A program made the position numbers and the translations under genes. A stretch of DNA of 64,000 nt from Streptomyces sp. Q6 (lineage in GTDB: Bacteria > Actinomycetota > Actinomycetes > Streptomycetales > Streptomycetaceae), in NCBI RefSeq assembly GCF_036967205.1, contig NZ_CP146022.1:1488001-1552000 (forward strand), read 5' to 3'. The notes beneath the pieces were generated by a model, which was given only the letters and a program-made list of their open reading frames with translations, was not told the DNA's origin and did no database searches. Shown here in pieces: positions 25,764 through 45,775 of the stretch; within the stretch, counting starts at the first letter, position 1; every line of letters begins with the position of its first letter.

Positions 25764-27991
<2,228 letters not shown>

Positions 27992-28013: not shown

Positions 28014-28018
28014 CTCCG
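28014..28018. repeat. Left target-site duplication (CTCCG) of the Tn7-like element
   Basis: CTCCG directly abuts the left terminus and is repeated at the right terminus (44126-44130). Confidence 0.9.
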
Positions 28019-28109
28019 TGCGACCGAGATTTTTACTTGGCGGACGAGCGCAGTAGTTGGCGGATCTTGCTTCGGTAACGCTGCGTTGTTGAGACTTGGC
28101 GCTCTCGTT
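28019..28109 (+). repeat. Left transposon end with three TnsB-type binding repeats
   Basis: After the terminal inverted repeat come three same-orientation copies of a motif with core TTGGCGGA: TTACTTGGCGGACGAG (about 28033-28048), GTAGTTGGCGGATCTTG (28053-28069) and a weaker GAGACTTGGCGCTCTCG (28091-28107). Arrays of this kind are TnsB sites in Tn7-like ends. Confidence 0.85.
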
Positions 28110-28281
28110 GGCCCTTGAGCGTTGCAGCTAGCCTGTGCCTGCCTGTGACTGAGCTCGGTAGGTGGCCCTTGAGCATTCCGGTTGGCCCCGTACTGGCCGC
28201 TGGATCACCGCCGAGAGGCTTCCGGTGGGCCGCCGGGCCAGCCATGATCAAGTTCCGAGGATTCGATGGTTGGGGTGTGAC

Positions 28282-29310
28282 GTGGACTGGCGGACCGATC
28301 CGACGTTCGAGATGTGTCGGAAAGTGACGGATGGGGCGGACTTGGCCTCGTTCTCGGGGGGGCCGTTCGACGTGCGGGCGGCGGTGGCCAGTATCCTGCC
28401 CGAAACTCGACAGGCCTTGGACTTGGATGCCGTCCCGTGGGGTAACTTCCCCCATGGGTACGACGTCCGGGAGGCAGTTTCCCTCCTGCGCGCTGGCGGC
28501 GAACCGGTCGTGGATGCGACGGGTGTGCTGTGGGGCCTGTGCGCCGACGACAGCCGGGCCGCCGCCGCCCTCGCCGTGCCGTTCCTCACTCCCCTCGCCA
28601 TCAACGCCCACCACCCACACCGCACCGCCGCCCTCGCAGTCCTCTCCGGCCCCGCCCGTGCCAGACACCACGGCGTCGCCTCTCGCGAGGAATTCCTCCT
28701 CCACCGCAACGATCCCCAGCGCCACGCCCCCGATACCCACGACGACTACGGCTACGAGGTGACCGGCTACCCGGCCGGCTGGTCGGTGGCCGCCGCCCGA
28801 GCCGCGATCACCACCGCCACCACCGCGCTCCTGCCCCTTCTTGGAGACTCCGACCCCACCGTCCGCGTCGACGCCGCCTACGTCCTGGCGACCGCCGCCG
28901 ACCCCGCCCACACCATCCGAACTGCCTTGGCCAACGGATTCGCCACCGAAGGCGACGCCATGGTCCGCGCCGCCCTGCTCCTGGCCGCCGCCGAGATCAC
29001 CCGGGCCCACCCGTACCCGCCGACTGTCAGGTGGCTGCGCGAACGGTGGCACGACCGAGCGGAGGCCCCCGAAGTCCGTCTGTCGGCGGCGGTCGGCTGG
29101 CTCTGCCTCACCGACCAATCCGCACCGGAGGAACTCCGCCGGGCCGTCGACACCCTCGCCGACAACGAGCGCGCACACGCCATGGAGGCCCTGCCGTGGA
29201 TGAGCGCCGCCTCGGGCACTAACGAACCAGGACTCCTGCGCTGCAGACGCTGCATGCTCCACCCAGAAGAACCTGACCCGGAAAAGGTCCTCTGGGACTC
29301 TCTGTTCTGA
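28282..29310 (+). CDS. Unknown cargo protein, HEAT-repeat-like
   Basis: 342 aa from GTG 28282 (GTGGACTGGCGG); earlier in-frame codons run into the transposon end and look non-coding. The middle has helical repeats with the HEAT pattern (LLPLLGDSDPTVRVDAAYVL, AMVRAALLLAAAEI, EVRLSAAVGWLCL), suggesting an alpha-solenoid of roughly four or five units used for protein binding. The C-terminus has a CRRCMLHPEEPDPEK segment. No catalytic motif. It is the first gene inside the left end of the Tn7-like element, so it is cargo; whether it belongs with the next two genes is unknown. Confidence 0.7.
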   Translation: MDWRTDPTFEMCRKVTDGADLASFSGGPFDVRAAVASILPETRQALDLDAVPWGNFPHGYDVREAVSLLRAGGEPVVDATGVLWGLCADDSRAAAALAVPFLTPLAINAHHPHRTAALAVLSGPARARHHGVASREEFLLHRNDPQRHAPDTHDDYGYEVTGYPAGWSVAAARAAITTATTALLPLLGDSDPTVRVDAAYVLATAADPAHTIRTALANGFATEGDAMVRAALLLAAAEITRAHPYPPTVRWLRERWHDRAEAPEVRLSAAVGWLCLTDQSAPEELRRAVDTLADNERAHAMEALPWMSAASGTNEPGLLRCRRCMLHPEEPDPEKVLWDSLF

Positions 29311-29410
29311 GCAACCGGTCGGCCAACTACCGTGCTCGGCCCGACTACCCGACTCGGGCGCCCACCGCCCCGGCTCTTGAGGTTCCTGAGCTGGGCGTTA
29401 GCCTCAGCGG

Positions 29411-30418
29411 ATGATTCCTGAGCCGCCACCGAAGGTCATCACGCGTCTCCGCGACGGGCGGATCCACGCCTACGTCGTGGGCCCCGACGTCTACGGGACG
29501 CTGGAGCCCGCAGTGGTCTTCCAGCCGAGGGACGGCGAGGAGGTCGTGGCGTCGGTGGTCCGGCGGGATCTGGAGCGGGTCGTGTACACGACGCTGAACG
29601 GAGTCGTCTGCCTTACGCGCGCCGGCGACCTCGTGTGGGCCTCGGACTTCGAACCGCGCTCTGACGTACCCCATGGCCACCGGCCTGGCTGTGTGCTGTC
29701 GCGGGACGGTCGGACGGTGTGGGTCTACCGGCCGGACGCGATGGCGGGCCGCGGGGGCGGGGACCAGTGGATCGTGCACGATGCCGACAACGGTGTGGTT
29801 CTCGCCCGCTGCGAGTTGGAGACGGTCGGGCACGGCGCCTCCCACCACGTGCATCCCGTGGACGGCAGCATCTACCTCGACATCGGTGAGGGCCAGGACG
29901 GCTCTGTCATTCTCCGGGGCACGGTTGGGGTGGACAGCGAGCCGGAGTTCGTGACGTACCCGTGGCAGGACCGCTGCCTGATCGACCTGGCTCCGTCCGG
30001 GCGTCAGTTCATGACCGTGGACCACGGGCAGGCGGACGTCGCCTTCCATGACCACCCCAACGGGGACGTGCTCTTCACCTTCCCTGTCGAAGCCTTCGGG
30101 TACGACCCGGAGGAGTCCTTCGTGGAATGGAGCGGCGGCTACCTGAGCGAGGACACGGCCATCGTCACCCTGGGAGGTGAGAGTCAGGACGAGGAGGAGT
30201 GGTTCCGTCACCACCTGGTCGACGTACGCACGGGCACCCTCGGCGGCGAGTTCACCGTTGAGGCGGGCAACCCGTACGAGCTGGTGCCCCTGGGCGACGG
30301 TTCCTGGCTCACCGGCGGCCCCGGCGGCGCCCCTGTCCGTTGGTCCAGCGCTCAGCAGCCGTCGGCACCGCCGCACCCGGCCGCACCGACCTCTCCATGC
30401 GGGGGGCAGCAGCCGTGA
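29411..30418 (+). CDS. Unknown cargo protein, beta-propeller-like
   Basis: 335 aa rich in beta-strand blade patterns (VVYTTLNGVVCLTRAGDLVW, GCVLSRDGRTVWVYRP, GSIYLDIGEGQDGSVIL, GGYLSEDTAIVTLGG), compatible with a WD40/PQQ-type beta-propeller. The C-terminal 30 residues are Pro/Ala/Ser-rich. No ribosome-binding site is obvious before ATG 29411, so translation may be leaderless. Its stop overlaps the next start (GTGA), coupling the two products. Function unknown; possible role as a recognition module in a cargo defence or immunity pair. Confidence 0.75.
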   Translation: MIPEPPPKVITRLRDGRIHAYVVGPDVYGTLEPAVVFQPRDGEEVVASVVRRDLERVVYTTLNGVVCLTRAGDLVWASDFEPRSDVPHGHRPGCVLSRDGRTVWVYRPDAMAGRGGGDQWIVHDADNGVVLARCELETVGHGASHHVHPVDGSIYLDIGEGQDGSVILRGTVGVDSEPEFVTYPWQDRCLIDLAPSGRQFMTVDHGQADVAFHDHPNGDVLFTFPVEAFGYDPEESFVEWSGGYLSEDTAIVTLGGESQDEEEWFRHHLVDVRTGTLGGEFTVEAGNPYELVPLGDGSWLTGGPGGAPVRWSSAQQPSAPPHPAAPTSPCGGQQP

Positions 30419-31080
30419 CGACGGACCCCCGAGTGCCGGTGATTCCTCAGGCGCCTGAGGGCTTGAGCCGGCGAGCTCGTTACTTCGTTGAGGGACACGG
30501 GCTGCGTGTTCCACACCGCGACCTCAAGCTCTTCCGGGAGGCATGGCTCAAGCAAGGGATTCCGGATGCCGAGATCGACCGGGCTGTCGCCTTCCAAGAG
30601 CGCTGGGGCGGTCTCGCCCTGCCCCCGGCCCCCGAATACGAGGGCGGCCCGCGCGTTCTGGAAGCCGATGCCCCGGAGGGCTCAGCCGCGAACGGATGGC
30701 GGTTCCCGGCTGGCGACTGTCGTGTCTCCATGGCCCACGGGTTCATGATCGGGCCAGGAGGTGAGTTCGGGATCGACGCTGACCACTGGACGCCGCTGCA
30801 CGCCAGCACAGAGGGATGGGTGGAAGCCCTGGCACTTGCCAGCCACGCGGGCTACTGGGCCAAGAGCATCACGAAGATCAAAGGCAGCGCCGTCGAGGAC
30901 GTGAACCTCGACGGATTCGAGCCGGTACCCGAAGTCCAGGGACTCGCTGACACCTGGTGGCGGGGCAAGGACTCGCTCATCGCCATCTACCGCGGCGAAG
31001 CCTCAGGCTTCAGCGCCCCCCACTGCCTGAGGGCCCATATCTACGGCGGGCTCGATGCGTGGGGCCTGGCCGGCAACTGA
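30415..31080 (+). CDS. Unknown cargo protein translationally coupled to the propeller-like protein
   Basis: 221 aa from GTG 30415, which overlaps the upstream stop as GTGA and has a GGGGGG stretch about 9 nt before it. The sequence is soluble and mixed alpha/beta (HRDLKLFREAWLKQGIPDAE, AVAFQERWGGLALPPAPEYE, FMIGPGGEFGIDADHWTPLH). The opening helices plus RWGG(L)xLPP pattern recall SMI1/KNR4 (SUKH)-like immunity proteins, but I could not confirm this. The coupling suggests it works with the propeller-like protein. Confidence 0.7.
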   Translation: MTTDPRVPVIPQAPEGLSRRARYFVEGHGLRVPHRDLKLFREAWLKQGIPDAEIDRAVAFQERWGGLALPPAPEYEGGPRVLEADAPEGSAANGWRFPAGDCRVSMAHGFMIGPGGEFGIDADHWTPLHASTEGWVEALALASHAGYWAKSITKIKGSAVEDVNLDGFEPVPEVQGLADTWWRGKDSLIAIYRGEASGFSAPHCLRAHIYGGLDAWGLAGN

Positions 31081-31153
31081 CTCCCGAAGGCCGAGCTCTC
31101 GGTCCTGCCGCTGAGCGTTCGGGTTCCCACAGGGGCCAAATTGCAGTACTAAG

Positions 31154-31165
31154 TCACAGTTGTGA
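31154..31165. promoter_or_regulatory. Inverted repeat upstream of tnsA
   Basis: TCACA-GT-TGTGA is a perfect short inverted repeat 54 bp before the tnsA start, in the only sizeable gap before the transposition operon. It could be an operator; no binding protein is identified. Confidence 0.35.
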
Positions 31166-31218
31166 TCAGTTCCGAAGATCGGGCCTTTTCGTTATGCAGG
31201 TGGTGATGCTCTGGGTGA

Positions 31219-32040
31219 GTGAGCGAGGTAGCCAGGGCAAGGATCCGGTCGGACTCGAGTTGCCTCGACGAGCTTGTCGCGGGGTACAGCGGGGATGCCG
31301 CATTTCGGGATCAACTCGACCTTGCGGATGGCTGGATTTCGCGGTGGAGTTCGACGTGGCGGGTGGGTACCGGTGAGGTCTGCTGGCCGGTCCGCGACAT
31401 GGCTCATGTTCCTGTGCTGTCGTCCCGGCCGGTGCGGGGGTTCACCTGGCGGGCGAAGCAGCGGCATCGCCCCGGCCTGGAGGTGATGGCGTCCACGGGC
31501 AGGGGGCACGGCTTCGAGTCGCTGGAGGAAGTGCGGCTGCTGGTCGCGCTGGACTTCCTGGGGGCGTCGGAGGTGCTGTCGCAGCCGTTCCGGCTGGACT
31601 TCGGACACAAGAGCGGGTCGTCTTGGCACATCCCGGATTACTTGGCCTTCATCGGTGGCGGGATGTGGCTGATGGACGTACGCCCGATGGGACTGATCAA
31701 GGACGAGGACGCGCTGAAGTTCGCGGCGGCCAGGGAGATGGCAGCGGCTTGCGGCTGGCAGTACTCGGTGGTCGCGGGCTGGCGCCCGCATGTCTGGAGC
31801 GTCCTCGACCACCTGTCGTCGCGTCGTCGGCCGGTGAGGGACCTGCTGGGCATGCGGGACCAGCTGCTCACGATCATCGGCGGCCGAAAGGGGCGCGTGA
31901 TGACGTTCTCCGCGCTGGCGGACGCGACCAGCGTGCCTTCCGTCGGCCGGGCCAACATCGTCCGGCTGCTCTGGCAGCGCGAGCTCGGCGTTGATCTGGG
32001 CAGTCCCCTGCGCGACAGCTCACTGATCTGGGGGGTGTGA
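31219..32040 (+). CDS. tnsA: TnsA-like transposon endonuclease
   Basis: 273 aa from GTG 31219. TnsA cuts the 5' strands at the transposon ends so that, with TnsB, the element moves by cut-and-paste. The nuclease core has FESLEEVRLLVALDF (catalytic Glu), then HIPDYLAF...MWLMDVRP, where the PD-(D/E)xK pattern appears as D...DVR with Arg replacing Lys, as in actinobacterial TnsA-like proteins. A C-terminal winged-helix region (ALADATSVPSVGRANIVRLL) probably contacts TnsB/TnsC. The exact start is uncertain, because the first ~60 residues are less conserved-looking. It overlaps tnsB (GTGA). Confidence 0.85.
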   Translation: MSEVARARIRSDSSCLDELVAGYSGDAAFRDQLDLADGWISRWSSTWRVGTGEVCWPVRDMAHVPVLSSRPVRGFTWRAKQRHRPGLEVMASTGRGHGFESLEEVRLLVALDFLGASEVLSQPFRLDFGHKSGSSWHIPDYLAFIGGGMWLMDVRPMGLIKDEDALKFAAAREMAAACGWQYSVVAGWRPHVWSVLDHLSSRRRPVRDLLGMRDQLLTIIGGRKGRVMTFSALADATSVPSVGRANIVRLLWQRELGVDLGSPLRDSSLIWGV

Positions 32041-33500
32041 TGGCGGCGCGGGGATTTCTGCAGATCGCGCCGGGCAGACGGCTCGCGCTCAACGGCGTCG
32101 AGTGGACGGTTGAAGATGTCCACGGCCAGCTCGGGCGGCTCGTGCTCGTGGATGGCGGCGGTCACACAGAGACCCGCTCGTTCCGCTGGCTCATCAACCA
32201 CGCCGACCTGCGACTCCTTCCGGCGACCGAAGCGCCTGGGCGGCCGGCGCCGGTCTCGCGGCAGCCGAGGACACTGGCCGACCTGACCGAGGACCAGGTG
32301 GAGCGGGCCCGGCTGCGGGCTGCGCATGTGCTGGAGGCCGAGACGGGGTTCCGGGAGGGGCACCCGGCTCGGGCCCTGCCCGGAGAGCCTCGTCCGGCTT
32401 ACGACCCGGACCGTACGACGCTGACCCAGCGTCGGTACGCGAAGGCGGCGGAGATGAAGGCGATGCCCCGGCCGGAGGCGGTCCGGCTCGGTCTGCAGCA
32501 CCTCAGTTTCCGGACGCTGGAGCGTCTGTCGGGACTCGCGGGCGACAGTCTCCTGCTGGCCTGCGCGGACGGACGCTGGACCCGGCGACGCAGTGGCCAC
32601 CGCAGCGTCACCGAGGAGGTCCGTGAGGCGATCTTCGCGGTCAAGGCCGAGTGCGGGGAACGCGCCCGCCTGAGTCTGGCCGCCCGGCACCGGTTGATGC
32701 ACCAGTACATGCGCGAGCGGTTTCCGGCGTTTCCGGCCGAGAAGATCCCTTCCCGTTGGACGTTCGCGGACGTCTGGAGGGAGTGGTTCGGGCCTGGAGG
32801 CGCCCGGCCACGCTACGGACGGACAGCGGAGGCCGCCGCGGAGGCCGGCGTTTCGGGCCGGATGGTGGTCCACCGCCCGGGCCAGGTCCTGGTGCTGGAC
32901 TCGACCCCGATGCCGGTGAAGCTGCGCGAGACCGTGTTCGGCGACGCGGTCACCGCGACGCTGACCCTCGCGCTCGATCTCTACACGCACGGGCTGCCGG
33001 CCTTCCGGCTCACGCTGCAGTCCGACACGTCGGTCGACGTCGCGATGCTGCTGCGGGACGTGATGCTGCCATTGCCGATGCGGGACGGCTGGGGCGAGGA
33101 CATGGAATGGCCCTACGCCGGGGTCCCGGCCGACGTGATCGCCGAGTTCACCGGGCACCGGGTCGCCGCTCTGCCGTTCTTCGCCCCGGAGACGGTCACC
33201 ACCGACCACGGCGGCCCCTACAAGAACCACGACCTGGTGGAGGTCGAGCGAGAGATCGGCTGCCGGATCCTGCCCGCCCGGGTGCTGCGGCAGACCGACA
33301 AGTTCGCGGTCGAGCGCCAGTTCCTCACGATCCAGACCATGCTCTTCGAGCACCTGCTGGGCTTCACCGGCGGCGACGTCGCCGACCGCGGGGCCGACCC
33401 GGAACGAGATGCGAGCCTCACACTCGCACAGGCCGAACACGTCATCGCGACCTGGATCGTCCAGATCTGGCAGAACCACAAACTAGTAGGACTTTGTTAG
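32037..33500 (+). pseudogene. tnsB: TnsB/TniA-type DDE transposase, 5' part (interrupted by IS701-family insertion)
   Basis: Starts at GTG 32037 or ATG 32040. The DDE (rve) catalytic core is visible: Asp in VLVLDSTPMP (~residue 292), Asp in TTDHGGPYKNHD (~394), Glu in DKFAVERQFL (~428). After IWQNHKL the frame enters the IS at 33487 and stops at 33500, giving a 487-aa product lacking the C-terminal beta-barrel and TnsC-binding tail. Joining at one CTAG to 34871 restores a continuous 763-codon gene (IWQNHK-LGEYAP). TnsB joins the 3' ends to the target and binds the end repeats at 28019-28109 and 44018-44125. Confidence 0.9.
33483..33486. repeat. Left target duplication (CTAG) of the IS
   Basis: CTAG at 33483-33486 is repeated at 34867-34870 flanking the IS; YTAR tetranucleotides are the known IS701-family target. 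Confidence 0.9.
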
Positions 33501-34866
33501 GTGGTGTCGTAGGGCTGCCAGGGTGCGGGTTGGTGGCAGGTGGGGCAGTGTCCTGACCAGGTGGCGAGCGTCTGCTGGAGTTGTGCGAGGGCCTGGTAGA
33601 GGGTCAGGCCCCGGCAGGGGCTTTTGGGTCGGTGCGCTGTTCGGTGAGGAAGAGGTGGGCCGCGGTCACCAGGGTGGTGTGGCGGTGCCAGCCGTCCCAG
33701 GACCGGCCCTCGAAGTGGTCGAGACCGAGGGCGGTCTTCAGCTCGCGGTAGTCGTGCTCGATGCGCCAGCGGGTCTTGGCGAGGCGGACCAGGACCCGGG
33801 GTGGCAGATCGGCGGGCAGGTTGGAGAGCCAGTACCTGACCGGCTCGTCGGCGCCTTTGGGCCACTGGGCGATCAGCCAGCGCAGAGCGATGGTGCCATC
33901 GTCGGCGGGCCGGGGACGACGACCGGCCGGACGGACCCGCAGGAACACGAACCGGGCCCGCATCCGGCCCCGCGAGCCGCGTCGCCAGCCGACGGTGACG
34001 GCCTGGCCGGGGTCCGCGGCCCGGACGTGCTCGCGCAGGCTGACCGGGCGGGTCCGGTAGCGGGCAAGCGGGCGCGGGCCCAGTCCGCTGTAGGGCGGGG
34101 TGACCGGCTCGATATCTGCCGGGTAGGCCGTCAACTCGCCCTTGACCTGCAGCACATAGGCCAGCTGTCGCTCCTCCAGCCCCCTGCGGAAGGAGGCGTT
34201 GTTGCCGTATCCGGCGTCGGCGGCCACCACCGCGGGCCGCAGGCCGAGCCCGGCCAGCTCGTCGAGCATGTCGAAGGCCAGCTGCCACTTGGGCCGGTGA
34301 TGCACGTCTGTCGGGATGCGGCAGTGCCGGCGCTGCCGGGCGGCATCAGGCCCGTCCCAGCTCCCGGGCAGGAACAGCCGCCAGGCCAGCGGGCAGGATG
34401 CGCGGTCGGTGGCCGCGTGCACGCTCACTGCCACCTGGCAGTTGGCGGTCTTGCCCAGCGGCGGGCAGTACTGCGCGGCGACCGCGGGCGACAGGTCACC
34501 GTCCTTGGGGAAACCGGTGTCGTCCACCACCCACACCTCCGGCCGGACCACCGCCATCGCACGGCGGGCCAGCCGCTGCTGGACCGCGTTGGCGGGCCAG
34601 GTCGACGAGGTGACGAACTGCTGCAGCCGTTGATGATCGACGCCGAGTCGGCGGGCCATCGGCTGCATCGACTTGCGCCGGCCGTCCAGGAGCAGGCCCC
34701 GCAGATACAGTCCGCCCTTGGCCCGCTGGTCCGACCGCACCAACGGCGCGAACACCTCCGCCGCAAAATCCTCCAGCCGGTCACGGCACCCGGCAAGCTC
34801 CTCCGGAGTCATACCCCCAGCGAACTACCAAGCCCTGAACCTGACCAGTCACCTAACAAAGTCCTA
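33487..34866 (-). mobile_element. IS701-family insertion sequence, 1,380 bp
   Basis: Bounded by perfect 17-bp terminal inverted repeats, TAGGACTTTGTTAGGTG at the left and its complement CACCTAACAAAGTCCTA at the right. CTAG duplications lie on both sides. It carries one transposase gene on the minus strand. The insertion splits tnsB; excising the IS and one CTAG restores the reading frame exactly, showing a recent insertion into a working gene. Confidence 0.95.
33604..34812 (-). CDS. IS701-family (DDE_5) transposase
   Basis: 402 aa, full-length. DDE superfamily motifs: first Asp in VWVVDDTGFPKDG, second in VVAADAGYGNN, and Glu in RIEHDYRELKTALGL. It carries the N-terminal region typical of IS701 proteins (FAAEVFAPLVRSDQRAKG, YLRGLLLDG). 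The gene looks intact, so the IS itself could still be mobile. About 117 bp of non-coding sequence separates its stop from the left inverted repeat. Confidence 0.95.
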   Translation of the reverse strand: MTPEELAGCRDRLEDFAAEVFAPLVRSDQRAKGGLYLRGLLLDGRRKSMQPMARRLGVDHQRLQQFVTSSTWPANAVQQRLARRAMAVVRPEVWVVDDTGFPKDGDLSPAVAAQYCPPLGKTANCQVAVSVHAATDRASCPLAWRLFLPGSWDGPDAARQRRHCRIPTDVHHRPKWQLAFDMLDELAGLGLRPAVVAADAGYGNNASFRRGLEERQLAYVLQVKGELTAYPADIEPVTPPYSGLGPRPLARYRTRPVSLREHVRAADPGQAVTVGWRRGSRGRMRARFVFLRVRPAGRRPRPADDGTIALRWLIAQWPKGADEPVRYWLSNLPADLPPRVLVRLAKTRWRIEHDYRELKTALGLDHFEGRSWDGWHRHTTLVTAAHLFLTEQRTDPKAPAGA

Positions 34867-34870
34867 CTAG

Positions 34871-35712
34871 GTGAATACGCCCCGAGCTGGGCGCCGGGTG
34901 AGGACCACAGCCCCAACACAATCTTCGCGGCGGCGATGGAACAGGGCGGCTTCGACCTGGACTTCCCAGAACCGAGCATCTACTACAAAGTCCTGCGCAA
35001 GCACCACGTGAAGATCCATCCGCGACGCGGAGTGAAGATCCTCGGGCTCTGGTATCACCACCCGGTCCTCGACGAGCCGCGCTTCCAGCAGCCCTCCGCC
35101 CGAGGCGGCAAACACGCGGGCCAGTGGGTAGTCCGCAGTGACCGCAGGGACCGCCGTCAAGTGTTCTTCCAGGAGCCTGCCGACCACGAGACATGGCACA
35201 TCCTGCGCTGGCGAGGACTGCCTCTCGAAGGCGAGATCCCCGCCTTCTCGGACAAAACCGCCGACGCCCTCCTAGCACAGGTGAAGGCGAACAACATCAG
35301 GATCCACTCCGAGAGCGAGCTCCTGGAGCATCTACTGGGGATCCTCGGTTCGGTCACCCCCGTCGACCAATGGCCCAGCCAGGCCAAGAAGAAGGCCGGG
35401 AAGAAGCAGCGCGTTGCCCAAGCCCGCGAGATCGCGCGCGCACAGGCTGCGGCCGCTGACCGCCCCGCCACAGCGGCCCCCGCGCCCGAGCCAGCTCCGG
35501 CCGAGATGCCTGCGGCCTGGGCCGAGCACGCCCGCACGATCGACCGCGCGGTCGACGCCGACCGCCGCCGACGGCGAGAAGAGGCCCTAGCCGGCACCAG
35601 GCCCGTCGCCCCGGAAACGCTGCGTGAGGCGCTGAACCGGCGTCCCATGTTTCGGCTTCCGCCCCCTGACGACCCAGAAACCGACACGACTTTCCGGCAG
35701 GAGGACGCATGA
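34871..35712 (+). pseudogene. tnsB: TnsB/TniA transposase, 3' part (continuation after IS)
   Basis: Continues tnsB from GEYAPSWAPGEDHSPNTIFA. It contains the Mu-transposase-like C-terminal beta-barrel (VKILGLWYHHPVL, RRQVFFQEPAD), a basic Lys/Gln helix (AKKKAGKKQRVAQAREIARA), and the acidic tail that normally contacts the AAA+ regulator. It has no start of its own. Its 3' end overlaps tnsC (ATGA), and AGGAGG precedes the tnsC ATG, so IS insertion may also reduce tnsC expression by polarity. Confidence 0.88.
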
Positions 35713-37001: not shown

Positions 37002-38833
37002 GGAATGAAGCGAAGATGCCTCCGCTGCCCCGGAGTCTTGACCCCGTGGCGGGAGAATCCCTGGTCAGCTACCTACTTCGACTCGGACACCGGCTCGGTC
37101 TCTCGCCCCTGCACCTGATCCGTGCGACACGTGCAGCAGGCTGGGCCAGTCACACTATCCCCTTCAGTTTGCTGCTGGACCTACCGACGCCCCAGGCCCA
37201 AGCATTCGCCCAGCTGACGAAACAGACGGCCGAGGAAGTCTCGGCACTGACGTTGACGCAGTGGCGAGATCGATATCCGCCGATCTCCCGGTCGATGACC
37301 CACCCGATAAGGACGATGCCAGACGAATGGCTCTACTTCGGCTCTCCACGATTCTGCCCCTCCTGTTTGGCGGGCGACGGTTCCCCAGCCCAGCGACTGC
37401 ACGGTGGGCCCTGGCGCAAACTCTGGCATCTGCCCATCGTGTTCGCCTGCGTCGAGCATCAGACCTACCTGGAAGGTGAATGTCCCCACTGCGGCCAGCC
37501 ACACGAAAGACCAGGGCTGCTGCTTCAGCGGGTCAACGACCACACTCTTCATCCAGCGCAATGCCGGTGGACGGTCGGCACCCAGACGCAGAAGAGAAAA
37601 TCCTACGCCTGCGCCGGCCGACTGGACGACAGCTCCGCCTTTGCTCACGTTGGCCGGCCAAAACCAGATGCCGAAATTCTCCGTTTCCAGCAGTCCCTCA
37701 TTTCCCGCCTGACACCATCGACTTCAGCCAAGGACGCGTCCAAATATTTCACCGATCTCCGGCTGGCCGCCGCGCTGATCAGTGCAACCTGGCCTCATGG
37801 CTCTAAACTCTTCGACGCCGAAACCGCTAGGCAAATCCACTCCTATTCGCAGAACCTGCAGGGCGGCGAGGGCGGAAAGCGCTACCATCAATGGTTCCGC
37901 GACACACCCCCACGTGATTCCGCTACCTGCGGAGCTCTACTGATGGCCGCAGACCAGATGCTTTCAAGGCGCGACCTTCCTGACCTCCTGTCAGACTTCA
38001 CACGCGCCGCGAATAATGCCTCCAACCAACCTCGCAGCCGCACGTCATGGGTAGTTGTCTACGACCGACACAAGGGCGACTGCTCCGAACGACTTCGCCA
38101 GGCCGCCGACCCCGTAACCCGAGTATTCCTAAGAAAGGGCACCCACCTCCAAACCGGCTACCAGCCCGAACACATCCCAGCATTCCTGGAGCCGGACTGG
38201 CACCAGCGCCACCTGGCCAGTTGCGCGGGCTCGCGATCCAAGACTGCGCGGAGGACCGCCGCCATCCGACTCGTCCAACAAGTCATGGGGGGATCCGACC
38301 AGGCCGCCGCAGAATTTCTCGGGATCCCTCCCATTCAGAGATACGTGCTCCGCGGACGCGACACTAGGTGGCCACTGAGTAGTGGCTGCAACCCTATTGA
38401 TTTCGATAGGGCTCTCCGCGCTCTCACTTCGGAACTGCAGTCACCACGCAAACCGCCAATTGACTACCGGCGCAGGCGACAAGCACTCCACGAATGGGCA
38501 ATCAGCCCCGACACCTGGAATGCTCTGATTCGGCACCTTCCTCGGTCCCCTCATGTCACCCAGATCGACTTCGGTGATCGGAAACGTCAAACGGCTTCTG
38601 TCTACGTATGGACGCTCATCACACAGGGCGAGCACCTCTTCGCTCCGCGGCCACTCGAAGCCGCACAACCTCCCGAAGTCCGCCAGCAATGGGCTCGGCG
38701 TCGCAACACAACCTGGTTCCAGTTCACTCGTCCTGACCCCATGGGCCACTATGCTGAAATGCGTCGAATTCTTTCCGAATACGCCCAACAGCTTGCCCGG
38801 GACATCGACTCAGGCGTTGAAGTGACTGACTGA
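36998..38833 (+). CDS. tniQ: TniQ/TnsD-type target-selection protein
   Basis: 611 aa from ATG 36998 (ATGA overlap with tnsC). The N-terminal TniQ domain is clear: LPRSLDPVAGESLVSYLLRL, then zinc-ligand clusters CPSCLAGDG and CPHCGQPHE. The remaining ~400 residues form a long C-terminal region with helix-turn-helix-like stretches (QAAAEFLGIPPIQRYVLRGR), as in TnsD proteins, which read a fixed attachment sequence. This suggests a site-specific, TnsD-like pathway. The last gene of the tns operon, with 6 bp to the convergent regulator gene. Base composition in the second half is less GC-rich than its neighbours, consistent with transfer. Confidence 0.88.
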   Translation: MRNEAKMPPLPRSLDPVAGESLVSYLLRLGHRLGLSPLHLIRATRAAGWASHTIPFSLLLDLPTPQAQAFAQLTKQTAEEVSALTLTQWRDRYPPISRSMTHPIRTMPDEWLYFGSPRFCPSCLAGDGSPAQRLHGGPWRKLWHLPIVFACVEHQTYLEGECPHCGQPHERPGLLLQRVNDHTLHPAQCRWTVGTQTQKRKSYACAGRLDDSSAFAHVGRPKPDAEILRFQQSLISRLTPSTSAKDASKYFTDLRLAAALISATWPHGSKLFDAETARQIHSYSQNLQGGEGGKRYHQWFRDTPPRDSATCGALLMAADQMLSRRDLPDLLSDFTRAANNASNQPRSRTSWVVVYDRHKGDCSERLRQAADPVTRVFLRKGTHLQTGYQPEHIPAFLEPDWHQRHLASCAGSRSKTARRTAAIRLVQQVMGGSDQAAAEFLGIPPIQRYVLRGRDTRWPLSSGCNPIDFDRALRALTSELQSPRKPPIDYRRRRQALHEWAISPDTWNALIRHLPRSPHVTQIDFGDRKRQTASVYVWTLITQGEHLFAPRPLEAAQPPEVRQQWARRRNTTWFQFTRPDPMGHYAEMRRILSEYAQQLARDIDSGVEVTD

Positions 38834-38839
38834 GATAGA

Positions 38840-39955
38840 TCAGAACTCCACGCGAGGACGTTCGATGATATCCCGACCAAGCAGGGTTCGAATGTCGGAT
38901 TCTGGAAGGCCGGAACGGTTGATGAAATCGCCGGATGTGACACCAGTTTTTTCCGTGAGCTCCAGTGCCCGACGCAAGAGGACCGGAGTTTCTGGATTAC
39001 CTAGAGAACCTGGCTCTACTTTCCTCCACCCTCGGACGGACAACGCTTTCCATCCTTGCGCGTAGGTGTTTTCGCTCATGACGCCCAGTGTTTTTGCTCG
39101 GACGAGGAGAGCAGCTAGCGAGACGTGCCATTTCGCCTTCAAGCGAAGAAGTGCGGGCCAGTCGAGCCGGTCCGGAAGTTCTGATTTGATGTCGCTGGCA
39201 GGCATTAGGAACGCAGCGGCGAACTCGTGGGCTTGACTCTCAGTAGCCTTGTCGCCAATTTTTCCAGTGACACCATGCAAGACCAGATGGCCTAGCTCGT
39301 GGGCCGCATCGAAACGGGAACGGTCGCGCAGTCCCTTGTCGGCCCCAAGAGCAACCACGGGCCTGTCGGAGAAGTCAACGCAGAATGCATCGACCTTTTC
39401 GATGCCAACGCGGAAGCGGACAACAATAATCCCGTTGATTTCCAGCAGTCGCACAACGTCTTGGACCGGACCGCGTGGGACTTTCCAGTGGCTACGGACC
39501 TGGGCAGCCGCTTGTTCGATATCAGCGGACCGGAGAGGCTGCCCTTCTTCGATTGGCACGCGCGGCAGATTGAGTTCGGGCAACGCAACGTGCTTTTCGA
39601 GCTCAAGCGTGAATTCCCGCGCGAGGTGTACGTAGGCGAGAGCTTGTTGGCGGTCTCGAGGAGAGGTGGATCGAAGACTGCGGAAGAAGCCGTTGACCTG
39701 CTCTTGGGCGGGGGGACGAGCCGGAGCGGCGAAGAACGACGTCGGAACCCGCAACGCGACCGCGAGCCGGCGAAGCGTCGATGTGGCGGGCTTGGTGTGT
39801 CCGTTCTCGAACTGGCTAATCGAGGCTGCGGTGACGGAGCCCACCTCTCTGGCCAGTTGCACCTGGGTGAGCCCCCGCAGTTCGCGTGCCATTCGCAGCC
39901 GGGCACGATCGAACAGGGCGGCGATGTCGCCGGGGTCCAGTTGTGGGTCGTTCAC
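38840..39955 (-). CDS. HTH (XRE)–ImmA/IrrE metallopeptidase fusion, probable CBASS regulator
   Basis: 371 aa from GTG 39955, with GGGAGG seven bases upstream; longer versions enter non-coding-like sequence. The N-terminal XRE helix-turn-helix (LRGLTQVQLAREVGSVTAAS, ISQFENGHTKPA) is followed by an ImmA/IrrE zinc-peptidase domain with HELGH (~residue 248) in RSRFDAAHELGHLVLHG and a downstream Glu in ESQAHEFAAAFLMP. Such fused proteins regulate mobile-element genes, and damage or infection may switch them. CBASS loci often encode a separate HTH (CapH) and metallopeptidase (CapP); this single-chain version, divergent from the CBASS operon, looks like an equivalent. That role is inferred. A 20-bp palindrome lies 25 bp upstream of its start. 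Confidence 0.9.
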   Translation of the reverse strand: MNDPQLDPGDIAALFDRARLRMARELRGLTQVQLAREVGSVTAASISQFENGHTKPATSTLRRLAVALRVPTSFFAAPARPPAQEQVNGFFRSLRSTSPRDRQQALAYVHLAREFTLELEKHVALPELNLPRVPIEEGQPLRSADIEQAAAQVRSHWKVPRGPVQDVVRLLEINGIIVVRFRVGIEKVDAFCVDFSDRPVVALGADKGLRDRSRFDAAHELGHLVLHGVTGKIGDKATESQAHEFAAAFLMPASDIKSELPDRLDWPALLRLKAKWHVSLAALLVRAKTLGVMSENTYAQGWKALSVRGWRKVEPGSLGNPETPVLLRRALELTEKTGVTSGDFINRSGLPESDIRTLLGRDIIERPRVEF

Positions 39956-39979
39956 GTCGCTCGCCTCCCGGCCAGTCGA

Positions 39980-39999
39980 CGTCCGCTGATCAGCGGACG
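39980..39999. promoter_or_regulatory. Perfect 20-bp palindrome, probable XRE operator
   Basis: CGTCCGCTGATCAGCGGACG is perfectly self-complementary and sits in the divergent control region between the HTH–ImmA/IrrE gene and the CBASS operon. It is a strong candidate binding site for the XRE dimer. Confidence 0.7.
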
Positions 40000-40103
40000 C
40001 TTCTCGATCTTGAGTACTCCGCTCGCATCTTAGGCACACCTTGGTTACCGGTCGGTCAAATCGCTCAGCTCCGGCCGGACGCACCCGAGGAAAGTGTGTC
40101 GAG

Positions 40104-40146
40104 TTGCATCCCCGCCCCGTCATGTACTCTACCTATCGCACGGAAG
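40104..40146 (+). promoter_or_regulatory. Putative CBASS operon promoter, short leader
   Basis: TTGCAT (40104-40109), a 15-bp spacer and TACTCT (40125-40130) make a weak sigma-70-type promoter, placing transcription start about 10 nt before ATG 40147. No good ribosome-binding site is present (GGAAG abuts the ATG), fitting near-leaderless translation. The spacer is shorter than ideal. Confidence 0.35.
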
Positions 40147-41106
40147 ATGATGTTCAAATCTGAGGTGACCCGCCAGCGGTGGGGGGACGGAGCTGAGGTG
40201 CTGAGAGTTCAGGAGTGCGTGCTGTCCAACGAGGTGATCACCGCCGACTCGGCGGAGACCACCTTGTGGGACGCCATCGTGGTGCCGGAGGGGATCAAGG
40301 AGCGGTTGCGCAACCAAACCGTGTTGTCGCTGCTTGTGCGGCCTGACCTGCCGTTTGCGGTGACGGCGCTGCACGGCCTGTGCACGCTCTACGGTCCTCC
40401 TGGTACCGGCAAGACGACCCTGGCGCGGGGTCTGCCGGCGCAGGTCGCCCGCTACGTCGGTGGAGGCGCGGTTCGACGGATCGAGATCAACCCGCACGGG
40501 CTAATGAGCGCCGAGCACGGGCAGTCGCAGCAGCGGGTCAGCGAGCTGCTCGGCGAGTACGTTCCGGGCCTCGCGTCGGATGGCGTGCCGACCGTGGTGA
40601 TTCTCGACGAGGTCGAGTCGATGGCTGTGGCCCGCTCGGCGGCGTCGCTGGCCGCCAACCCGGCCGACGTCCACCGCGCCACGGACGCGGTGCTCACTGC
40701 CTTGGATCTCAACGCCGCCGAGCACCCGCACCTGTTCTTCGTCGCGACCAGCAACTTCACCACCGCTCTGGACGAGGCGTTCCTCTCCCGCTCCGACGCC
40801 GCCATCCTCGTCCCGCTTCCCGAGCCGGAGGCACTGCGGAAGATCCTGGCCTCCACGCTGCTGATGCTGGCCGACAAGTACCCCGCCTTGGGCGAGCTTG
40901 CGCGCTCCTCGGTGGTGGACCGCATCGCCGAGGCGGCTCACGGACTGGACGGCCGCCGTACGCGCAAGGTGGTCTTCGAAGCCCTGGCTCAGCGGCTGGA
41001 CACGGTGCTGGACCCCGGCAGCCTGACCGAAGGCGACCTGGCCGCCGCGGTGCACAACGCCGTCGCGGAAACGGGCCAGCCGGAGGTGTCCCGTGCGGCG
41101 CGCTAG
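40147..41106 (+). CDS. cap6: TRIP13/Pch2-like AAA+ ATPase of type III CBASS (Cap6)
   Basis: 319 aa. Walker A GPPGTGKT (83-90), Walker B VVILDEVESM (150-159), sensor TSNFTTALDEAFLSRSD (201-217). The 'DEVES' and 'TSN...AF..R.D' arrangement is that of TRIP13/Pch2. In type III CBASS this ATPase unfolds the HORMA protein, releases it from the CD-NTase and keeps the system off until infection. The start is ATG 40147 or 40150. The first gene of a five-gene operon; its end overlaps the next gene by 14 bp. Confidence 0.92.
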   Translation: MMFKSEVTRQRWGDGAEVLRVQECVLSNEVITADSAETTLWDAIVVPEGIKERLRNQTVLSLLVRPDLPFAVTALHGLCTLYGPPGTGKTTLARGLPAQVARYVGGGAVRRIEINPHGLMSAEHGQSQQRVSELLGEYVPGLASDGVPTVVILDEVESMAVARSAASLAANPADVHRATDAVLTALDLNAAEHPHLFFVATSNFTTALDEAFLSRSDAAILVPLPEPEALRKILASTLLMLADKYPALGELARSSVVDRIAEAAHGLDGRRTRKVVFEALAQRLDTVLDPGSLTEGDLAAAVHNAVAETGQPEVSRAAR

Positions 41107-41572
41107 GCAGGTGGCGGCCTCCCCCACGCGCAGCGCCAGCGGAACCTGGGCGGTGATCTCGGACCTCGTGGCGGATACCGTGGCGCAGTCCTCCGCGCTG
41201 TCCCGCGACGAGGCGGTGCAGGCGATGTCGGCCGCCGAGGCAATCGGGCGGATGCTGATCGCGGCAGGGCACCTGCAGCAGCACCCGATCACCCTGGTGG
41301 CCGGCAAGGTGCACTGCGAGATCACGACGGTGTCCGGCACGGCGGCGCTGACGTTGGAGGAGAACCTCAACCCGGTCCCCGGCGCGGCGGGCGCCGACGA
41401 TTTCACGATCCACCTGCCGTCCCCGACCCCGCTCCAGGAGCAGGTGAAGGCAGCCGTCGATGGTCACGCCCGGTTGTCCGACGCTGTCCCGCCCGCTCCG
41501 GAGACGAAGGCGGCCAGCTCCGGTCCGCTGATCGACCGTGAGGCTCTGCGTCGGGCGGTGACCCAGCGATGA
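41093..41572 (+). CDS. Unrecognised CBASS-operon protein (159 aa) between Cap6 and HORMA
   Basis: Starts at GTG 41093 (alternative GTG 41111) and overlaps both neighbours: 14 bp with cap6 and ATGA with the HORMA gene, so it is made with them. The first ~95 residues look folded, with a helix (SRDEAVQAMSAAEAIGRMLI) and strands (HPITLVAGKVHCEITTVSG, AALTLEENL). The last ~55 are Pro/Ala-rich and probably disordered, ending PLIDREALRRAVTQR. I do not recognise the family. By position it may partner the HORMA protein, for example supplying a closure peptide or acting as a sensor; this is a guess. Confidence 0.8.
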   Translation: MRRARQVAASPTRSASGTWAVISDLVADTVAQSSALSRDEAVQAMSAAEAIGRMLIAAGHLQQHPITLVAGKVHCEITTVSGTAALTLEENLNPVPGAAGADDFTIHLPSPTPLQEQVKAAVDGHARLSDAVPPAPETKAASSGPLIDREALRRAVTQR

Positions 41573-42072
41573 CCTCCACCTATACCTACAGCTACACCCG
41601 GACCCACACCGCCACGCACCTGACCGACGTCATCCTCGGCACCATCACCGACATCCTCGCCGACCTGGGGATCAACATGGACCGGCTGCATCGCGACTGG
41701 GTGCAGAACGAGAACGCGATCAAGGCGTGGATCGAGGAGGGCTCACTCGACACGGTCGTCCTCGAGTGCCACCAGTCCTCGGGCGCCGTGGCGCCGGTGA
41801 TCGAGTTCCCGGTCTCCTACACCACCGCCGGCGACGGCAACGCCGAGTTCACCGCCTCTCGTGCCCGAGCCGCCCGGTTCCGGGCCAAGTTCGACCAGGT
41901 GCCCGCGGGCACCACCTACCGGCTGTTCTGCACCTTCAACGGGCCCCGCACCCCGCAACCGGGTTGGGGCCCCGGCCAGCGGTCGAGCACCGACGGCCTG
42001 CGCGGCATCACCTTCGGCACCCTCGGCTCCGCCCCACACGCCTCGACCGGCATGCGGTACTACCACACCTGA
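41569..42072 (+). CDS. cap7: Bacterial HORMA-domain protein (Cap7, family 1)
   Basis: 167 aa. The N-terminus TYTYSYTRTHTATHLTDVIL followed by GTITDILADLGI is the bacterial HORMA family 1 pattern. The C-terminal part (ARFRAKFDQVPAGTTYRLFC) would form the safety belt. HORMA proteins sense an infection-linked peptide, close on it and then activate the CD-NTase; Cap6 reopens them. ATG 41569 overlaps the upstream stop. 24 bp separate it from the CD-NTase gene. Assignment rests on motif recall and the TRIP13/CD-NTase context. Confidence 0.88.
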   Translation: MTSTYTYSYTRTHTATHLTDVILGTITDILADLGINMDRLHRDWVQNENAIKAWIEEGSLDTVVLECHQSSGAVAPVIEFPVSYTTAGDGNAEFTASRARAARFRAKFDQVPAGTTYRLFCTFNGPRTPQPGWGPGQRSSTDGLRGITFGTLGSAPHASTGMRYYHT

Positions 42073-42096
42073 GGCCACGAGCAGGAAGACACCGCT

Positions 42097-42963
42097 ATGG
42101 GATACATCGACGACGCCTTCACCAAGCTCAAGCACAACCTGGAGATCACCCAGACCGAGCAGAACCTGGCGAAGGCACGGCACGAGGCCATCCGCGATTT
42201 CGTCCGGTCGCACTGGGACCTCGCCGACGATTTCCTCACCGGCAGCTACCGGCGCGACACCAAGACGAAGAAGCTCAAGGACATCGATATCTTCGTGGTC
42301 CTCGACGCCAACGGCTCCCAGGCCGACTTCCGCGATCAGGCGCCCATCCAAGTGATCAACGCCCTGGAGACCCTGCTCCGTCAGAAGTGGAGCGCTGCCG
42401 CCCGCGACGGCATGGCCGTCGTCATCCCCTACGGCCCCGACGACGAGGTCATGTCGATCGACGTGGTCCCCGCCTTCAAGCGAGGCGAGGGCGGCTACTA
42501 CATCCCCAATCCCTCGGCAGGCGACTGGATCGCGACCAACCCCAAGCGCCACCACGAGCTGAGCATCGCCAAGAACGCCGACTGCGACGGCAAGTACGTG
42601 CCCTTCGTCAAGATGGTCAAGGGCATCAACCGCGAACTCGGTGAGCCCGTGTCGCCCTCCTTCCTGCTGGAGGTCATGGCCCAGTCGCTGGTGAAACCGC
42701 CGATAGGGCGCTACCAGGACGAGATCGTGCTGTTCTTGGCCACCGCCGCCGAACGCATCGGCGACGAGTGGCCTGACCCCGCTGGCCTGGGCGGTGACGT
42801 CAACGCCGTCATGAACGCGACTCAGAGGCTCGCCGCGGCCAACGCACTCACCCAGGCCCGCGCCATCGCGGAGCGGGCGGTCGACCTGGAGGACGAGGGC
42901 CAGGAGCGCGCTGCCTACGACGAGTGGAAGAAGCTGTTCGGGAACAGGATGACCAGGCCATGA
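42097..42963 (+). CDS. cdn: CBASS cyclic-oligonucleotide synthase (CD-NTase, SMODS)
   Basis: 288 aa nucleotidyltransferase. Active site: GS at 49-50 in FLTGSYRRDTKTK, the metal-binding acidic pair in KDIDIFVVL (62-64), and the third acidic residue in SIDVVPAF (~122). This is the SMODS layout of CD-NTases, which make a cyclic di- or tri-nucleotide alarm signal on phage infection. The C-terminal helical domain (SPSFLLEVMAQSL) completes the fold. AGGAAG lies before ATG 42097. The stop overlaps the effector start (ATGA), keeping synthase and effector in fixed ratio. Base specificity and clade cannot be set from sequence alone. Confidence 0.93.
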   Translation: MGYIDDAFTKLKHNLEITQTEQNLAKARHEAIRDFVRSHWDLADDFLTGSYRRDTKTKKLKDIDIFVVLDANGSQADFRDQAPIQVINALETLLRQKWSAAARDGMAVVIPYGPDDEVMSIDVVPAFKRGEGGYYIPNPSAGDWIATNPKRHHELSIAKNADCDGKYVPFVKMVKGINRELGEPVSPSFLLEVMAQSLVKPPIGRYQDEIVLFLATAAERIGDEWPDPAGLGGDVNAVMNATQRLAAANALTQARAIAERAVDLEDEGQERAAYDEWKKLFGNRMTRP

Positions 42964-43928
42964 ACCTCTCCACAGACCCCGGGGGCGTTCACGGGATACC
43001 GCCTCGGGCTATCCACGAGCGGCAGTTCGACGACGACATGTTGCTTATCCAGCGCGCCGCGTCGGCAAGCCACCAACGCGGCCAGCTCCTCGAAGCTGTG
43101 CGCGTCACCGCCGCCGTTCTGCTCGCCGCCGCCGGTGTCCTGATCACACTGTCCGGCCACGGCCGGACAGTCGTCTCGATCGTCGGGTTCTTCTGGTTCG
43201 TCGTCTCCGCGTTCCTGCTTAAGGGCCTCGCCGGGAGCACCGCCCGCCAGGGCGCCCTGCTCCAAGAGATGTTCGACGTCGCCCTGTTCCACTTGCCGTG
43301 GCGCGCCACCGTTGCAGGCGACCCCATCCCCGAACCCGACGTCCGCCGTCTCGCGCGCAAGCTCCCCCGAGGCGGCCCGAAGGACAAGCGCATCACTGAC
43401 GGTTGGTACGACCCCACCCACGACGTCCACCACCCCTACGACGTGTTCATTGCTCAGGAACAGAACCTCGCCTGGGACGCTCGTCTTCGCCGTCGCTATA
43501 GCTACGTCATCGCTGCCGTTGCGTTGCTGTGGGCCGCCATCGGCTTTCTCGCCGGCTTGGTGGTCGCGGACGCCACTCTGGGCGACACTCTCCTCAGCTT
43601 CTTCGTCCCATCCCTGGCGGTCTACCAGATCGCTTACGAAATCTGGTCCGGCCAACGCAAAGTGGCTGACGAACGCGACCGACTCACCAAGGTCGTCAAC
43701 ACCGAGCTACACAGCGGACGCCCAGGCCCCGTCCCTGACGACGAATGGCGCCGCCTTCGAAGCGTTGCACGGGACGTGCAGGACGGCGTACTCCGCACCC
43801 GCCTGGACACCACCCGAGTACCCGAGTGGTTCTACAAGCGTTTCCGCGACGACGACGAACGCGACTTCGGCGACACTGCAGAAGGCCACCGCGTCCGCCT
43901 CGCGCAAAACACACCCCCATCCGCGTAG
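42960..43928 (+). CDS. S-4TM pore-forming effector of CBASS
   Basis: 322 aa with four predicted transmembrane helices in two pairs: VTAAVLLAAAGVLITLSG and VVSIVGFFWFVVSAFLLKGL, then YVIAAVALLWAAIGFLAGLV and LLSFFVPSLAVYQIAYEIW, with ~110 soluble residues between. QFDDDMLLIQRAA at the start and WDARLRRRYSY before TM3 fit the S-4TM (SMODS-associated 4TM) family. Such effectors are thought to open membrane pores when they bind the cyclic nucleotide, killing the infected cell. Coupled to the CD-NTase by ATGA; last gene before the right transposon end. Confidence 0.9.
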   Translation: MNLSTDPGGVHGIPPRAIHERQFDDDMLLIQRAASASHQRGQLLEAVRVTAAVLLAAAGVLITLSGHGRTVVSIVGFFWFVVSAFLLKGLAGSTARQGALLQEMFDVALFHLPWRATVAGDPIPEPDVRRLARKLPRGGPKDKRITDGWYDPTHDVHHPYDVFIAQEQNLAWDARLRRRYSYVIAAVALLWAAIGFLAGLVVADATLGDTLLSFFVPSLAVYQIAYEIWSGQRKVADERDRLTKVVNTELHSGRPGPVPDDEWRRLRSVARDVQDGVLRTRLDTTRVPEWFYKRFRDDDERDFGDTAEGHRVRLAQNTPPSA

Positions 43929-44017
43929 TTCGTTGGGCGGGATGCTCCCAGCCCGCCCAACCGACCCACCGCGACTAAGAGCGGCGCACACGCTCACGCA
44001 CAGTGAACGCCGAAATC

Positions 44018-44125
44018 TCAAGGTCCGCCAAGTAGGCCTCTCAAGATCCGCCAAACAGAATTCTCTACGCGCTCCTGACCTCTGCATCTCAGAACACGAT
44101 CCGCCAAGTAAAGATCTCGGTCACA
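44018..44125 (-). repeat. Right transposon end with three TnsB-type binding repeats
   Basis: Inverted relative to the left end: AAGGTCCGCCAAGTAGGC (44021-44038), CAAGATCCGCCAAACAG (44042-44058) and the terminal GATCCGCCAAGTAAAGAT (44098-44115), ending in CTCGGTCACA at 44125. All share the TCCGCCAA core, the complement of the left-end TTGGCGGA. Confidence 0.88.
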
Positions 44126-44130
44126 CTCCG
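44126..44130. repeat. Right target-site duplication (CTCCG) of the Tn7-like element
   Basis: CTCCG follows the right terminus and matches 28014-28018. Confidence 0.9.
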
Positions 44131-44169
44131 GACGCGCCCGAGCCCTTCGGCCGGCGGACGGGCCCGGGG

Positions 44170-45660: not shown

Positions 45661-45677
45661 GGTTGATACCTCCACGA

Positions 45678-45724
45678 TGGAATAATTCCACGGTGAAGGT
45701 AAAGTGAGGACGGTAGGTTGTCAA
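45678..45724 (-). promoter_or_regulatory. MFS promoter with MarR operator over the start site
   Basis: Minus strand: -35 TTGACA (45724-45719), 17-bp spacer, -10 TACCTT (45701-45696). The inverted repeat TGGAA-TAA-TTCCA (45678-45690) covers the expected transcription start, a typical MarR-repressed layout. Confidence 0.7.
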
Positions 45725-45775
45725 AGTGGTCGCCGACGCGGGGTGCGCGGCAGCGGAGAAGGGTGACGGGCCTCC

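Follow-up and report, generated by a model that had tools for sequence, protein, structure and literature searches.

Tn7 carries the genes tnsABCD and inserts at attTn7, downstream of glmS, as described in parts of PMC2918618 and PMC11406308. According to that part of PMC2918618, the TnsD site at attTn7 covers +23 to +58, the target duplication covers -2 to +2, and insertion does not depend on which bases occupy the insertion point. In the relevant section of a review, orientation control is said to be seemingly present in all Tn7 relatives (PMC11406308). Cyclic oligonucleotide-based antiphage signalling systems (CBASS) were reported by Benler et al. 2021 in 216 Tn7-like transposons, Actinobacteria included, and an Actinobacteria-dominated clade was described in the text of that work as being without experimental work (PMC8649781). 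Here, a Tn7-like element of 16,107 bp with CBASS cargo was analysed in Streptomyces sp. Q6, at 28019-44125 of the window, which is the whole stretch of 64,000 nucleotides analysed (contig NZ_CP146022.1, positions 1,488,001 to 1,552,000). Taken as a whole, it is very probably a cut-and-paste element that homes by its TniQ protein to the promoter of argC, carries a CBASS as cargo, and is probably stranded in its present copy.

The ends of the element and the site beside which it lies were as follows.

26908-27936, minus strand: argC, beside the target site (Pfam semialdehyde dehydrogenase domains)
27961-27989, minus strand: core promoter of argC (TTGCAT-N17-TATAGT), containing the ARG-box-like block TTTATGCA and proposed to be recognised by TniQ
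28014-28018, no strand: left copy of the target duplication CTCCG, 5 bp, directly outside the end
28019-28044, plus strand: terminal inverted repeat of the argC-side end, fitting TGYGACCGAGATYTTTACTTGGCGGA with 0 mismatches
28037-28064, plus strand: two TTGGCGGA repeats of the argC-side end, starting at 28037 and 28057, presumed TnsB sites
44024-44107, minus strand: three TTGGCGGA repeats of the CBASS-side end, presumed TnsB sites
44100-44125, minus strand: terminal inverted repeat of the CBASS-side end, fitting TGYGACCGAGATYTTTACTTGGCGGA with 0 mismatches
44126-44130, no strand: right copy of the target duplication CTCCG, 5 bp, directly outside the end

The stretch 28019-44125 is a Tn7-like element with exact ends. 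The 26-bp pattern TGYGACCGAGATYTTTACTTGGCGGA, searched with up to 3 mismatches, occurred in the window at both termini only (shuffle expectation 0.00), and the scan of the whole genome (8.95 Mb, the same tolerance) returned 2 matches, which were the two ends of the element. All 5 TTGGCGGA repeats of the window were located in the element ends, while shuffled sequences contained 2.07 on average and reached 5 or more in 3 of 100 cases. Under the Tn7 convention, by which the right end lies upstream of tnsA in the review section cited (PMC11406308), the argC-side end is the "right end". Matching ends, short repeats and a 5-bp duplication, as expected of Tn7-like elements, were likewise found in the sister elements G180, G207, G048, L161 and L190. 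The original prediction, made from the sequence alone, had named the exact ends, the CTCCG duplication and the flanking argC and major facilitator superfamily (MFS) genes, and all of these were confirmed; of the three core repeats that it gave for each end, those at the CBASS-side end were recovered, whereas TTGGCGGA occurred only twice at the argC-side end. It had also taken the location as incidental, whereas the place is a recurrent target site, and had suggested a search for sister elements by the end sequence.

A site pattern that joined TTTATGCA through a gap to the terminal consensus was run against 392 Streptomyces genomes and matched in 18, and its reversed form, used as control, gave 0 matches; argC adjoined the end in 18 of the 18 loci. 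The block TTTATGCA, which we take to be an ARG-box related to ArgR, occurred three times in the genome of the window when searched alone. When a looser pattern was applied to 157 genomes of the order, 9 genomes were matched, all of the same genus (control, 1 match), none of the 15 genomes of other genera was matched, and argC was present in 8/8 of the loci fetched.

The spacing was determined for 28 occupied sites, comprising the 18 pattern sites, G139 and nine named loci. The distance between the element end and the edge of the -35 box was 24-32 bp in 27 of these sites (mean 28.7, standard deviation 1.54), and the exception was G139 with 49 bp, where a stretch of about 20 bp was repeated. The promoter motif TTGCAT-N17-TATAGT adjoined the end at 28/28 sites, while the flanking 5-mers were of 27 different kinds. 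The same motif was present in all 29 loci collected around argC (L007-L035), two of which were occupied, namely L010 (G139) and L014 (G207). With the counting used for attTn7, the argC promoter is placed at about +27 to +55, which would be about where TnsD binds at attTn7. These results showed, by association, that the end keeps a fixed spacing to a conserved site, of the kind that TniQ/TnsD sets in Tn7-like elements. We infer that TniQ binds at the argC promoter; it would recognise the core promoter/operator and guide the element to a point 24-32 bp upstream of the -35 box. Since the insertion lies upstream of the -35 box, argC keeps its promoter.

The TniQ protein of the window has 611 amino acids, with a core that contains the zinc-binding Cys/His residues expected of TnsD and a C-terminal extension of about 230 residues, mostly helical in the structure model. 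No clear structural match of the C-terminal part was obtained by VIA-align, which is not proof of a new fold. With its core and long C-terminal part, the protein would act as a TnsD-type target selector; TnsA and TnsB would excise and join the element, TnsC would link them to TniQ, and the 5-bp duplication would result. A tree was built from 41 TniQ proteins, and the 15 that belong to argC elements were all placed in a single group of 17 (SH-aLRT, an approximate likelihood ratio test, 99). In a second tree, built from 48 N-terminal parts of TnsB, the argC label was spread over separate lineages and needed 5 changes vs 3 in the TniQ tree; the rows of the two trees were not quite identical and both were quick trees. 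The rows labelled as elsewhere were nine with an end seen, and the 17 TniQ-tree rows without argC in reach are not proof of another target. The element L172 contained the TnsB closest to that of the window (97%) together with another TniQ, and this 7,250-bp element, with GAACT at both sides, was not at argC. Two points weigh against TniQ as the determinant, namely that L162 and L169 have TniQ proteins inside the argC group while their elements are not at argC, and that the quick TniQ tree has long branches. On these comparisons, TniQ is a better guide to argC targeting than TnsB, apart from the two exceptions L162 and L169, which may use a second target route. Other addresses were also considered for the elements elsewhere: tRNA genes were rejected, with 1 tRNA in 39 loci, about 0.6 kb beyond the outermost listed end, and no target gene common to L162, L169, L172, L202 and L205 was found among ten end-adjacent proteins.

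Other explanations of the recurrent position were weighed against recognition of the promoter by TniQ. TniQ could read the 5' coding end of argC, so that the promoter spacing would be a by-product; the distance from the end to a conserved argC codon was almost as constant (standard deviation 2.10 vs 1.54 over 27 sites), and TnsD recognises coding DNA of glmS in the account of PMC2918618. However, the scatter was smaller relative to the promoter, and the coding start would only be reached from about +80 onwards, past the +23 to +58 span of TnsD; reading of the coding end is unlikely. Recruitment of TniQ by a host protein bound at the argC operator, either ArgR/AhrC or RNA polymerase, with TniQ itself not reading the DNA, is in our judgement quite unlikely. 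The conserved block is indeed an operator/promoter, if the ARG-box is as we take it, and the presence of both orientations would fit a looser recruiting signal, but the pattern was confined to argC sites, although ArgR would be expected at further arg operators too, and the target tracks TniQ variants. The region before argC could also be a permissive hotspot in which elements accumulate by selection and not by targeting, as insertion leaves argC and its promoter unharmed and the DNA upstream of argC varies between species; this is hardly credible when 27 of 28 insertions fell inside a 9-bp span and a near-identical TnsB N-terminal part with another TniQ sits elsewhere. Recognition of the argC promoter by TniQ is preferred.

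The relatives of the element were surveyed by TnsC, which gave matches in 180 of 392 Streptomyces genomes, many with less than 35% identity among the matches listed, and stretches around 20 of the best matches were taken. In the six closest sisters (TnsC 81-82%), tnsA was directed away from argC, and about 200 bp separated the starts of the two genes; in G036, tnsA itself was in two pieces. The more distant L080 and L081 were also at argC, L080 in reversed orientation, and in the remaining 12 stretches argC was not within the stretch, some of them ending at contig ends. The same 5 bp was found at both sides of the sisters G180 (28,326 bp), G207 (13,828 bp) and G048 (772 bp), of a cargo-free element of 6,495 bp with uninterrupted tnsABC-tniQ in S. 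monomycini NRRL B-24309 (L161) and of an element of 11,452 bp in S. lushanensis (L190). The miniature element of G048 (L126) was at argC with CCAGG at both sides, and one open reading frame (ORF) of 167 aa (981-1484, minus strand) was the longest lying within it. As no TnsC match was obtained in the G048 genome, this element would need a transposase from outside. In L192 and L212, several Tn7-like ends lay back to back, as would result from members of one family landing next to or within one another.

Regarding orientation, 14 copies at argC had the tnsA side next to the gene vs 4 with the other side, as counted from copies whose direction is given by tns genes; the remnants G330 and G256, as well as G022 and the fragment L214, were omitted from this count. 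The reversed copies were G207, L184, L190 and that of Streptomyces sp. sk2.1. Because the same 5 bp flanks both of their ends, the copies of G207 and L190 look like true insertions. Against the main reading, the 5 bp outside the ends of L184 do not match, the far end of the sk2.1 copy was not found within the stretch read, and a search for far ends with the same 5 bp was convincing in 4 of 19 sequences, where other stretches may end early. The reversed copies could also have arisen by later inversion. For the Streptomyces group in general, we lean towards the view that Tn7-like elements home by TniQ to the argC promoter-operator, not to a gene end, in both orientations, that different transposase lineages joined the TniQ selector, and that the 772-bp element of G048 shares this address.

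Empty sites were also searched for. The joined flanks of the G207 element were continuous in three genomes without the element (86, 85 and 79% identity across some 1,500 bases, interrupted by small gaps close to the junction), which gave a clear empty site by sequence comparison. For the window copy, the DNA beyond the CBASS-side end was compared with other argC loci, and the features were as follows.

44134-44163, plus strand: right flank matching the pre-argC DNA of G273, interpreted as DNA that originally lay upstream of argC
44164-49542: stretch of about 5.4 kb that contains the MFS gene and a gene for an aldo/keto reductase and separates the element from the arabinofuranosidase gene
49543-52035: arabinofuranosidase gene, the argC neighbour in some relatives

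In the search of the joined flanks against 295 genomes, the argC and MFS matches were separate among the matches listed, except in G273, where the match extended 33 bases beyond the junction. A single CTCCG was found before argC in G273, 30 bp from the -35 edge (29 in the window), and was followed by a 29-column match to the right flank of the window up to about 44163; this match (score 41, next locus 26) was not equalled in any of 1000 base shuffles over 34 argC loci. Since G273 was picked from 295 genomes after the joined-flank match, it is graded as a candidate empty site for the window copy. Against it stands that the support amounts to 29 columns in a genome chosen among 295, that argC was within 1.5 kb of the MFS gene in 0 of 19 fetched loci, and that 5.4 kb of extra DNA parts the element from the usual argC neighbour. 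The MFS gene itself was present in 26 others of 392 genomes at E 1e-150 or better, and neither it nor the remainder of the 5.4 kb, up to 49542, was beside argC in G273. Both must have been brought in by a separate event. The empty argC-MFS junction proposed in advance as a check was absent from the 19 loci, while the single CTCCG and the flank match were seen in G273, where the MFS gene is not in place.

From the argC side, the gene order of the element was three cargo ORFs, tnsA, a split tnsB, tnsC, tniQ, a divergent helix-turn-helix (HTH)-peptidase gene and the CBASS.

28162-29310, plus strand: cargo ORF, weak HEAT-repeat match under the Pfam cut-off
29411-30418, plus strand: cargo ORF, 335 aa, matching no family
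30340-31080, plus strand: cargo ORF, 246 aa at most, matching no family
31219-32040, plus strand: tnsA (NCBIfam NF033179 TnsA_like_Actin, 109.3 bits, cut-off 110, E 1.8e-31)
32037-33486, plus strand: 5' part of tnsB with an rve domain (weak Pfam match, under the cut-off)
33487-34866, no strand: IS701-like insertion sequence (IS), 1,380 bp, inside tnsB, CTAG at both sides
33604-34812, minus strand: IS transposase (DDE_5), on the strand opposite to tnsB
34871-35712, plus strand: 3' part of tnsB, 86-92% identity to the C-terminal tnsB of close sisters
35709-37001, plus strand: tnsC (TniB/AAA_22)
36998-38833, plus strand: tniQ, 611 aa (Pfam TniQ, E 2e-24; structure model), proposed argC target selector
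38840-40123, minus strand: fused HTH and M78 peptidase gene, proposed CBASS regulator
40147-41106, plus strand: TRIP13-like AAA+ ATPase (PADLOC TRIP13, E 5.3e-127; PDB 6lk0, E 5.6e-23)
41093-41572, plus strand: HORMA protein 1 (PADLOC HORMA, E 6.1e-97)
41569-42072, plus strand: HORMA protein 2 (bacHORMA_2)
42097-42963, plus strand: CD-NTase (SMODS)
42924-43928, plus strand: S_4TM membrane effector (Pfam E 2.1e-77; PADLOC E 8e-179)

The element thus contained a TnsB-type DDE transposase, split in the window copy, the TnsC AAA+ protein and TniQ of Tn7-like elements, as well as the TnsA endonuclease of cut-and-paste transposition, whose NF033179 score was slightly under the curated cut-off. The 5' part of tnsB shared 90-97% identity with the tnsB genes of close sisters. 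The inserted IS had 17-bp perfect inverted ends within the flanking CTAG (arms 33483-33503/34850-34870, 100%); a DDE_5 transposase, inverted ends and a 4-bp CTAG duplication, which we take to be the marks of the IS701 family, were all present in 33487-34866. The genome contained 3 copies, each flanked by CTAG and each 100% identical after rounding, and because of this identity the insertion looks recent. It cuts about 280 C-terminal residues off TnsB. With tnsB split and a single match to the tnsC query in the genome of the window, the copy is probably immobile; a later landing of the IS701-like element in tnsB would strand the element while the CBASS genes remain open, provided that no TnsB acts in trans. 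Continued mobility, by TnsB in trans or by a split gene yielding working parts, is very unlikely: the rve domain lies in the part before the insertion, and the ends, tnsA, tnsC and tniQ are open, but the severed residues and the absence of a second tnsC match in the genome search speak for a stranded copy.

By gene content, the element carries a complete type III CBASS gene set, with CD-NTase, two HORMA proteins, TRIP13 and effector side by side. In this family, TRIP13 acts on HORMA, HORMA on the CD-NTase and the CD-NTase on the effector; here, TRIP13 would open the HORMA proteins, HORMA would license the CD-NTase, and its cyclic nucleotide, a product formed in response to phage in such systems, would trigger the 4TM effector. 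The type III CBASS module would have been gained between tniQ and the far end. Close relatives of the CD-NTase (95-98%) were found in 2 of 294 other genomes, and the next match was 42%. In Streptomyces sp. sk2.1, a sister at argC carried the same CBASS and an uninterrupted tnsB in reversed orientation, with the CBASS-side end at argC. In G022, a broken sister spread over several contigs carried the CBASS in the interval from tniQ to its far end; an argC-side end was on another contig, and about 11.6 kb lay between that end and tnsA. Based on these loci, the CBASS element appears to have reached argC in at least two genomes and probably in a third, with the reservation that the 5 bp outside the two ends in G022 differ (TGTGT vs GTGAT). 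Other inserts break tnsC and tniQ in G022 (L076, L159), and this sister looks immobile too. In G040 (L157/L158), the HTH-peptidase gene and CBASS were 92% identical to 38821-43959 of the window, and neither the tns queries nor the end pattern matched within 40 kb, so the 5.1-kb module may have a further route of mobility.

These results bear on what had been read from the sequence at the outset. A HORMA/TRIP13 CBASS as cargo of a Tn7-like element was borne out by gene content, and its description as a strong case of defence-gene mobility applies to the history of the element (sk2.1, probably G022) but not to the window copy, probably immobile. Among tnsA-tnsB-tnsC-tniQ, tnsB was not intact, the other three being present as stated, and the placement of cargo at both sides of the tns genes, considered unusual, was not unique in view of G022.

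At each of the four loci with this CBASS (window, G022, G040 and sk2.1), the HTH-peptidase gene adjoined it, so this gene is likely a member of the module; a distant CBASS in G164 (about 40%) gave no match to this gene. The best PADLOC name of the fused protein was RmrA (E 2.2e-103), followed by capP (E 3.4e-15) and capH (E 2.6e-10). A CapH/CapP regulator pairs, next to an immune operon, an HTH repressor with a peptidase that ssDNA activates. CapH and CapP are described in part of PMC13373217 as separate proteins with HTH and peptidase domains, which control immune operons on DNA damage. By analogy with CapH/CapP, the fused gene probably controls CBASS expression.

If the proposal is true, argC represents a new sort of Tn7 attachment site, which is located before a promoter and rests on regulatory sequence. 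Nearly the same TnsB with two TniQ proteins at two places provides a clean natural comparison, both orientations at argC put universal orientation control in Tn7 relatives in question, and a complete CBASS is seen moving between Streptomyces species, with stranding possible in one. The small, complete and cargo-free member of S. monomycini makes the argC site testable as a landing place in Streptomyces. No literature report of argC as an attachment site of Tn7-like elements was found by a search that covered main texts and few subscription journals; in the main text of PMC8649781, supplements aside, "argC" was not found together with "Tn7-like", and "Streptomyces" and "HORMA" were absent. CBASS as Tn7-like cargo was already known, and the argC address is apparently new, although it may be tabulated elsewhere.

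Compared with known systems, the element resembles those of Benler et al. 2021, as far as their main text describes them, in being an actinobacterial Tn7-like element with CBASS cargo. Its CD-NTase, two HORMA proteins, TRIP13 and membrane effector are those of type III CBASS with HORMA and TRIP13, and its neighbouring regulator differs from CapH/CapP in being one fused HTH-peptidase protein with RmrA as best name. The CRISPR (clustered regularly interspaced short palindromic repeats)-associated transposons and protein-guided Tn7-like elements that home to tRNA, parE or comM share with it a large TniQ/TnsD thought to read the site directly, according to sections of PMC10293859 and PMC11406308; it differs from them in its attachment site and in that no CRISPR gene was among the family matches of its proteins. 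The likeness to Tn7 consists of tnsA-tnsB-tnsC with a TniQ-domain selector, repeated short sites in matching ends, a 5-bp duplication, a fixed spacing to a conserved site, and, in 14 of 18 copies of the argC family, a target gene adjoining the end upstream of tnsA. In contrast to Tn7, the argC family has a TniQ C-terminal part without clear structural match and is found in both orientations, and it inserts before its gene at the promoter, whereas Tn7 inserts behind its gene, next to coding DNA.

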